This document shows, piece by piece, positions 59,939-61,796 of a stretch of 64,000 bases of DNA. The position numbers and the translations under genes are program-made. The stretch spans positions 1 to 64,000 of the forward strand of contig JAOZGP010000005.1 of the NCBI GenBank assembly GCA_027491735.1, given 5' to 3'. Every line of letters begins with the position of its first letter. Within the stretch, counting starts at the first letter, position 1. The notes under the pieces are model-generated. The model was not told the origin of the DNA and did not search any database. It saw only the letters and a program-made list of their open reading frames with translations. Source of the DNA: Thermoproteota archaeon. Lineage in GTDB: Archaea > Korarchaeota > Korarchaeia > Korarchaeales > Korarchaeaceae.

Positions 59939-60928
59939 TTGGTGATCCTGAGGTCCATCTCACTTCACATATCCAAGCCCTCTGATCTGAATGGGTCTCT
60001 CCTCAACAGATTCTTGGAGCTCTCAGAGTCACTGGGTGATGTGTGGACTAGAAGAGCTGTTCTCCCGGAGGGAGTTCGTGAGGAGACCATAACGGGTCTG
60101 ATAGACATGCTGAACCAGGTCGATCTGATAGCAGTTCCTTTTAACAAACCTTCACCATTCATGATGAAGCTTCTTGAGGACCCCAAGATCTTCACCTCGC
60201 TTCCTCTGATGGAGAAATCAGCAGATTTCGTCTGTGAGATCAGCAAGAATCTAGGAGAAAGAGCTTGCGCACAACTGGGTTTCTTTCATGGGAGCAGACC
60301 CATGACCCCCTACTTTCCCATAACCAGGTCAACTCGAACGGGTTTTTCCTCCTGCATGAGGGTGATACCAGATCTGATCAGCTCTGAGAATCCAGTGGAG
60401 AGGTTCTGGAAGATCTCCAGGGAGATCAACGACCTTCTCATTGAGGCATCCACTGAACACTCCATTCCCTTTCTCGGGATCGATCTCTCGATCTCTCCGT
60501 GGATGGAGGAGAGCTGTGTGGACCTCATGAAAGCCATGTTCGGAGTGATCATTGGGGAACCGGGAACGATCTCAGCGATCTGGAACATGAACAGACTTCT
60601 AGGTAAGGTGTCCAAGAAGGTCAGATCTATTGGATTTAATGAGTTGATGCTTCCCTACGCGGAGGATAACGGCCTCATGAAGCTGGCCAGAGAGAGTCGT
60701 CTGAGAGCGAGAGATCTCGTATCCATAATCTCTGTTTGCGTGGCGGGCTTTGACATGGCTGTCATACCACGAGACCTGGAGGTAATCCGAGCTCTGTTGA
60801 GGGATGCTCAAGCGATAGCCGTGAAAAAGAGAAGGAGCGTCGGAGTTCGTGTCATACCTACTGAGGCTCAGATCGGGGAGGAGGTCAAACTTGAGGGATT
60901 CACAACAGTACCGGTGATGTCCCCGTGA
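59939..60928 (+). CDS. DUF711/UPF0210-like protein
   Basis: FHGSRPMTPYFPITRS; FLGIDLSISPWMEESCVDLM; GFNELMLPYAEDNGLMKLA; GFDMAVIP. Confidence 0.78.
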   Translation: MVILRSISLHISKPSDLNGSLLNRFLELSESLGDVWTRRAVLPEGVREETITGLIDMLNQVDLIAVPFNKPSPFMMKLLEDPKIFTSLPLMEKSADFVCEISKNLGERACAQLGFFHGSRPMTPYFPITRSTRTGFSSCMRVIPDLISSENPVERFWKISREINDLLIEASTEHSIPFLGIDLSISPWMEESCVDLMKAMFGVIIGEPGTISAIWNMNRLLGKVSKKVRSIGFNELMLPYAEDNGLMKLARESRLRARDLVSIISVCVAGFDMAVIPRDLEVIRALLRDAQAIAVKKRRSVGVRVIPTEAQIGEEVKLEGFTTVPVMSP

Positions 60929-61368
60929 GCTCAGATCAGCCTCTAGTCTTCCTTGGAATCGACGACATGGAGACCACGGAGGAGATCATAAGGAAAATAA
61001 AGAAGGTGTTGGAATCCGGAGGCATAAGAACAGGCGAGATTCGTGGATTCGATGTTCTCCGGGGGAGGGCTTGGGCCTCCTTGGCCCTGGGCGATCCCGG
61101 AATCATAGCTGATCTAGCCGGTGAGGTGGTCTCACTTTTGGGGGAGGGCAATCCGGGAATGGTGCTGGTGATAGATGGTGTGGACAGGGCGGCTGCTGTG
61201 CTGGCTGAGGGCATCAGAAAGAAGGAGGTCTCAAAGAACGAGATTTACAACATGGCGGATATGTTCAGGAACATATGGCTCTTCGAGCTTGGGGGGAACG
61301 GCCAGGGAATCATAGGTGCATTCGCGGCGGCCGTCCTCCTCGCGTGCAAGCGCGTGGGTTCCCCTTGA
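60925..61368 (+). CDS. small protein resembling part of TiaS (tRNA-Ile2 agmatinylcytidine synthetase)
   Basis: LVFLGIDDMETTEEI; EGNPGMVLVIDG; WLFELGGNGQGIIGAFAAAVL. Confidence 0.55.
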   Translation: MSSDQPLVFLGIDDMETTEEIIRKIKKVLESGGIRTGEIRGFDVLRGRAWASLALGDPGIIADLAGEVVSLLGEGNPGMVLVIDGVDRAAAVLAEGIRKKEVSKNEIYNMADMFRNIWLFELGGNGQGIIGAFAAAVLLACKRVGSP

Positions 61369-61650
61369 CCACCCTCGCTAAGAAGGCTCCGTCTGCAAGG
61401 GCGGAGATGAATCAGGGGGGTGGTTGGTGGAGAGTTAAACTCATAAAGCCTCGCTGCACACGTTTAATGCTGGGTGGGCGGGAGGGTCAACCAAGTCCCC
61501 GCAAGGGAAACTACAGCCCACCTCTCTGCTCCTTGCGGGCAGGTTGGTTTAACGGGGTGCTGGCCCACCCCACGTATATCCTTGGCAAGGGGCTGAGGAT
61601 ATACGCAACCGTTAGGAATCCTCGCACTTCAGTGCGGGGAGGAGGTCAAC
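61365..61650 (+). mobile_element. ORF-less IS200/IS605-like mini-element (MITE/PATE-type, omega-RNA-like content)
   Basis: TTGAC at 61365-61369; LE-type hairpin 61387-61406 (CTCCGTC tgcaag GGCGGAG); RE-type hairpin 61620-61639 (CTCGCAC ttca GTGCGGG); TCAAC at 61646-61650; no tnpA/tnpB. Confidence 0.62.
61472..61486 (+). other. perfect G-quadruplex motif with 1-nt loops
   Basis: GGGTGGGCGGGAGGG. Confidence 0.8.
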
Positions 61651-61697
61651 TAACCCTAGCATAAGTTTATCAAAAGTGGTTTTTGTTAATAGTTGCT

Positions 61698-61756
61698 GGC
61701 CTGTGATGATAATTCCTTCGTCCAATGGAATGACGATTGACGGGCGGACTGAGGCC
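61698..61756 (+). ncRNA. C/D-box sRNA, D guide predicted to target 16S rRNA at C1402 (E. coli numbering)
   Basis: GGCC stem / C box GTGATGA (61703-61709) / ...TTGACGGGCGGA / D box CTGA (61749-61752) / GGCC stem; guide complementary to CCGCCCGTCAA. Confidence 0.72.
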
Positions 61757-61796
61757 GTAATCGTTTTATACTCCTCACGAATCCTAAACTGAAGAT

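Follow-up and report, generated by a model that had tools for sequence, protein, structure and literature searches.

An ORF-less IS605-type mini-element of a Korarchaeales genome appears to retain a TnpB guide RNA scaffold

Near the end of the window, by which we mean the whole 64,000-nt stretch of Korarchaeales DNA that was analyzed, lies an ORF-less IS200/IS605-type mini-element of 280 bp (Table 1). We interpret this sequence as a non-autonomous IS605 derivative that would be moved by TnpA in trans and would still encode its own guide RNA, a reading to which we assign a probability of about 0.65. It is an evenly balanced question whether hyperthermophilic archaea more generally harbor widespread mobile elements that encode a TnpB guide RNA alone, behind their own promoter, and borrow both TnpA and TnpB. 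The HgcC RNAs would be included in that class, each being either the omegaRNA of a neighboring tnpB or a TnpB-less mini-element.

A preliminary description of this locus had proposed a non-autonomous, PATE-like member of IS200/IS605. This proposal is borne out by repeats in the host genome, TTGAC and TTTAC targets, a TCAA end, subterminal hairpins and autonomous relatives with matching ends. The TTGAC, both hairpins and the terminal TCAAC can be read directly in the sequence where they had been placed, and the TGA within TTGAC (61366-61368) is indeed the stop codon of the upstream ORF. Both ends carry subterminal hairpins, with neither terminal inverted repeats nor a target duplication, and the element is inserted 3' of a short TTAC-like target, of which TTGAC is a variant, and terminates in a TCAA-like right end. 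The right edge is placed to within 1-2 bases because TCAACT is common to three of the element's own copies. The description had also reported about 210 nt without an ORF. No transposase or TnpB ORF was found inside the mini-element, and Pfam returned no match for the ORF running through it (61275-61664, which yields 'RNPRTSVRGGGQLT'); this stretch is nevertheless a conserved structured RNA rather than empty filler.

Table 1. Features of the mini-element and its borders (positions in the window)
Feature	Position	Strand	Remarks
Target / TAM-like TTGAC	61365..61369	+	left of element; holds the upstream gene's stop codon
Mini-element, 280 bp	61370..61649	+	copies with different flanks; relatives
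Conserved motif CGCTAAGAA	61376-61384	+	precedes left-end hairpin
Left-end subterminal hairpin CTCCGTC-tgcaag-GGCGGAG	61387..61406	+	read in sequence
Weak TATA-like box CTCATAAA	61440..61447	+	homologous site of relatives is CTTATAAA or TTTATAAA
Putative omegaRNA core	61503..61649	+	homologous to last tnpB codons and right end
Helix H1	61517..61547	+	
Helix H2 (GGGGTG / CACCCC)	61554..61571	+	
Helix H3 (ACGTATATCC / GGATATACGC)	61572..61606	+	
Right-end hairpin (H4) CCTCGCAC-ttca-GTGCGGGG	61620..61639	+	
Right cleavage-site motif TCAA	61646..61649	+	TCAA(C) is 61646-61650
Predicted guide (host flank directly 3' of right end)	61650..61669	+	predicted from position, as in TnpB systems

The upstream gene (60925-61368, + strand, 147 aa) has no Pfam match and is conserved beside a DUF711 gene in two relatives (G001 and G002). 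A C/D-box-like sRNA (61697-61760, + strand) follows the stop of this gene by 343 nt in the window. In four relatives (G001, G002, G003 and G007), the sRNA motif is located 5-81 nt after the orthologue of the upstream gene with no mini-element in between, and a search of these orthologous loci with our covariance model of the element's RNA (R1) gave no match. These relatives are too divergent (27-43% protein identity) for an empty site to be defined at the level of bases, so absence was judged by synteny and covariance search; on these grounds, the empty-site comparison that had been proposed shows the orthologous locus without the element in all four. The sRNA itself matches Rfam sR2 weakly, and its ACGGGCGG stretch resembles a sequence complementary, in antisense, to 16S rRNA in the conserved region around position 1400. 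The insertion precisely at a stop codon beside a conserved sRNA, together with the preserved RNA structure, would suit a domesticated RNA that regulates host genes, for instance with a nuclease-dead TnpB-like protein. We consider such a role highly improbable: a sequence that is missing from relatives and occurs nearly unchanged at several unrelated sites behaves as a mobile element would, and no dedicated protein partner was found.

We then consider the copies within the host assembly (G000; 1.36 Mb in 41 contigs, 88% complete). The repeat search revealed partial copies at the ends of three other contigs, all with different flanks: the first 127 bp of contig C16 correspond to the left end (99% identity), which is preceded by a TTTAC target, and the last 126 bp of both C14 and C15 correspond to the right end (100% identity). 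Since these contigs end exactly within the element, they look like assembly breaks at a repeat, which leaves the window copy as the only one seen whole. The 99-100% identity among host copies implies that the element has probably been mobile recently. An ancestral single-copy RNA gene unconnected to any transposon would account for the presence of a structured RNA, but not for repeat copies with different flanks, precise common edges and autonomous relatives; this candidate was ruled out by the repeat copies and the absence at orthologous loci. The preliminary description would have been undermined by a lack of TnpA/TnpB relatives with matching ends or by an ancestral locus, and we found that such relatives exist and that the orthologous locus is without the element in four relatives.

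The host also contains a second family of TnpB-less mini-elements, whole at C28:7850-8130 and cut at C22:1-115 and C23:39780-39903, with TTTAC on the left and TCAC on the right. The RNA part of this family resembles the decayed tnpB 3' end at C36:77207, from which it is apparently derived. Searching the host for the left-end pattern with one mismatch gave 121 matches against 58 in the control, which are largely noise. In this assembly (88% complete), we found no intact TnpA (one truncated Y1 fragment), no intact TnpB (fragments or pseudogenes only) and no autonomous Y1-TnpA element with matching ends. A decayed TnpB on contig C18, with a frameshift and a stop, aligns with the core of the mini-element (78% identity over the longest intact part). 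The lack of intact TnpB and TnpA in the assembly argues against function in this host, despite the recent movement that the copies imply. No plasmid match to the element was found in a search for a vector. A TnpA with 52% identity is present in an IS of Sulfolobus virus SMV1. Contigs C1 (L096) and C26 (L105) share identical first 127 bases and then diverge, which constitutes another unresolved repeat.

About 150 nt of the interior (~61503-61649) can be aligned to TnpB-coding elements, over the final codons of their tnpB and their right end. The + strand folds far more stably than shuffled sequences (z = -4.3; minus strand, z = -3.4), and four helices are supported across 16 aligned sequences. 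In this alignment, which mixes mini-elements and tnpB-linked copies whose kinship inflates such shuffle tests, 93.1% of cells are paired (shuffled: 82.3, sd 1.0), two-sided changes occur in 18 of 32 pairs (shuffled: 9.6, sd 1.6) and two-sided cells number 52 (shuffled: 16.7, sd 2.9). None of 500 shuffles reached this level of covariation, and pairing drops to 42-58% with shifted partners. When the comparison is limited to the lineage of the window element, 34 of 37 pairs are preserved, where an equal number of random changes would leave 30.8 (P = 0.02), and a second within-lineage comparison gave 23 of 24 against 20.1 (P = 0.013). Covariation inside this lineage alone gives modest support (P of 0.01-0.02).

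At gathering level the Rfam scan returned tRNAs only, and the RNA signal appears under a permissive threshold alone. The full sot0042 model matches 61483-61640 (E = 1.2e-7 in 301 bases; 34.6 bits against a gathering score of 88) and HgcC (RF00062) matches 61552-61660 (E = 7.5e-6; 31.9 bits against a gathering score of 50). Beyond the full-length sot0042 match, the window RNA shares with the TnpB omegaRNA/sotRNA (RF02656; TnpB nuclease, PMC8612924) its position at the tnpB 3' end and right end, its helix layout, and a right-end hairpin followed by the guide position. It differs in lacking tnpB in cis and in presenting a 5' extension that was not seen in tnpB copies. The sotRNAs RF02656 and RF02657 are treated as omegaRNAs by the authors of PMC12558985. 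Judged from homology and covariation, the interior of the element is a TnpB omegaRNA scaffold, and an intact-looking one. The earlier suggestion of a relic kept for its RNA holds at the level of anatomy, with helices that show compensatory changes.

We further searched 60 relatives and detected full-length protein-less copies at 75% identity in a genome of another phylum (G035), which we take to be the Archaeoglobaceae MAG JALWDS. Three identical 300-bp mini-elements, each without protein genes, are present on a closed chromosome (G061; 1,560,622 bp) that is presumably that of Archaeoglobus profundus; their left targets are GTTAC, TTTAC and CTTAC and their flanks differ after TCAA. The same chromosome carries an autonomous IS605 (G061:C1:361685-363470) encoding a Y1 TnpA (PF01797, 5e-41) and a TnpB (PF01385, PF07282). 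This element presents the same left-end motif as the mini-elements, a similar right end and the omegaRNA core, and differs in carrying TnpA and TnpB and in lacking the mini-element's 5' RNA extension. Another autonomous IS605 of this kind was found in G069. The search for autonomous copies sharing both ends, as proposed at the outset, thus yielded TnpA+TnpB elements with matching ends in Archaeoglobaceae. Because the mini-elements of the window, G035 and A. profundus share a 5' extension that is absent in the tnpB copies examined, they look like one lineage, and this lineage looks as though it crossed phyla. Terminal-only derivatives of ~50 bp also exist (L064). In G061, three loci (L279, L282 and L284) are left-right terminal fusions with a ~130-bp insert at the hairpin and CACAGTA/TACTGTG-like flanking repeats; the insert recalls small mobile repeats of Haloquadratum, which have PATEs as their targets.

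The distribution of TnpB-less copies was analyzed by running R1 over 31 + 60 genomes (~90 archaeal) and counting the 57 matches with E <= 1e-4 and enough upstream sequence. TnpB was found upstream in 22 of the 57 and the remaining 35 were without it, a rough sorting in which linkage was called from an upstream zinc-finger motif or an upstream ORF of 300 aa or more, some TnpB-less matches being decayed tnpB and a long ORF possibly being a neighbor gene. Most of the 35 TnpB-less matches present the left-end motif 33-217 nt upstream, and the usual layout is left end, TATA-like box, omegaRNA and right end. One genome (G005) contains one tnpB copy and about seven mini-elements; G084 and Alkanophaga possess mini-elements of their own types. 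Across 15 mini-elements, the summed best score of the TATA-like boxes is 138 against 74 in shuffles (sd 9; P = 0.00025, the floor of the test, with TATA regions hand-picked after inspection). Taken alone, the TATA-like site in the window is weak (P = 0.13), and no such box lies between left end and omegaRNA in the C28 family. Autonomous copies also have a TATA-like box after their left end, so an internal deletion that brings promoter and omegaRNA together would produce the layout of the mini-elements.

This last point favors a simpler interpretation, in which the element is a plain MITE or PATE formed by internal deletion and moved by TnpA in trans, its omegaRNA part being the functionless leftover of a deletion that did not reach the right end. 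Any deletion that starts inside tnpA and finishes inside tnpB would automatically spare promoter and omegaRNA, intact TnpB was not found in the host assembly, and remnants of the tnpB 3' end have been described in PATEs before (PMC7290912, PMC3119063). Indeed, the Halanaerobium PATE-like element keeps its left end, the final 58 nt of tnpB and a complete right end (PMC7290912), and HqIRS71 of Haloquadratum walsbyi retains part of the tnpB C-terminal region (PMC3119063). Like the window element, these PATEs derive from IS605 and are free of transposase, have palindromes close to their termini, cause no target duplication and show kinship to IS605 ends. Here, in contrast, what is retained is an omegaRNA scaffold with covarying helices, preceded by a TATA-like box and found in several lineages across phyla; the two PATE studies (PMC3119063, PMC7290912) predate or leave out the topic of guide RNAs. 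The ~50-bp terminal-only forms show that the ends do not need the scaffold, which makes its retention in intact multi-copy mini-elements informative. Nearly all helix pairs are kept among the mini-elements of the window, G035 and A. profundus despite 25% divergence, and several RNA types of TnpB-less copies recur among unrelated archaea. For these reasons we regard a functionless leftover as possible but doubtful. The window element is a real, recently mobile and protein-less PATE with an intact-looking omegaRNA.

The HgcC RNAs seem to belong to the same class of TnpB-less guide-RNA mini-elements. HgcC and the window RNA share the right-end hairpin and GGAGGAGGTCA, and by the score test (31.9 vs 50) the window RNA is a relative of HgcC and not a member. 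Elsewhere, HgcC is found at the tnpB 3' end or in TnpB-less mini-elements with a left end and a TATA-like box. Eight matches above the gathering score were detected in G035, and the loci read there consist of a left-end hairpin, a TATA-like box, the HgcC RNA and the right end GGAGGAGGTCAG, with no TnpB. In Thermococcaceae, 50 of 61 genomes have HgcC matches. Among the 29 top loci, an ORF of >400 aa runs into or beside the RNA in 15 (the two tested were both TnpB), and several have no TnpB; several top-scoring loci have a TnpB-like gene in head-to-head orientation, and the one such gene tested contains a TNB domain. The transcriptome of T. kodakarensis indicates that HgcC1-3 are transcribed from within transposase genes and that HgcC4 and HgcC5 have their own start sites apart from transposase genes (PMC4247193). 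A 2017 genome paper still gave the function of HgcC as unresolved (PMC5732400), and our search of the open-access literature, which covered few subscription journals, found no paper naming both HgcC and TnpB.

Y1 TnpA moves IS200/IS605 elements at TTAC-like and TCAA-like sites, and TnpB works at the donor site as a nuclease guided by RNA; both are established for the family. The element would have lost tnpA and tnpB while keeping its single-strand transposition ends and a complete omegaRNA gene. From the ends, targets and copies, we infer that a Y1 TnpA acting in trans recognizes the subterminal hairpins and excises the element between TTNAC and TCAA; the excised element would then be inserted 3' of another TTNAC. 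A short RNA starting downstream of the left end may fold as the omegaRNA scaffold and extend into ~16-20 nt of host flank as a guide. Loaded into a TnpB made elsewhere, this RNA would direct cutting of the re-closed donor site (TTNAC plus flank) after excision. Restoration of the copy from the sister chromosome, as known TnpB biology suggests, would mean that the element is retained by a guide whose nuclease is supplied from elsewhere.

If this is true, guide-only elements would be parasites of a parasite, depending on TnpA for moving and on TnpB for retention. Earlier descriptions treated transposase-free IS605 derivatives as degenerate ends. Should the interiors of these derivatives function as guide RNAs, a single TnpB could support entire families of elements in trans, and an element could profit from RNA-guided retention without coding for the nuclease. 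This reading also gives HgcC a testable identity.
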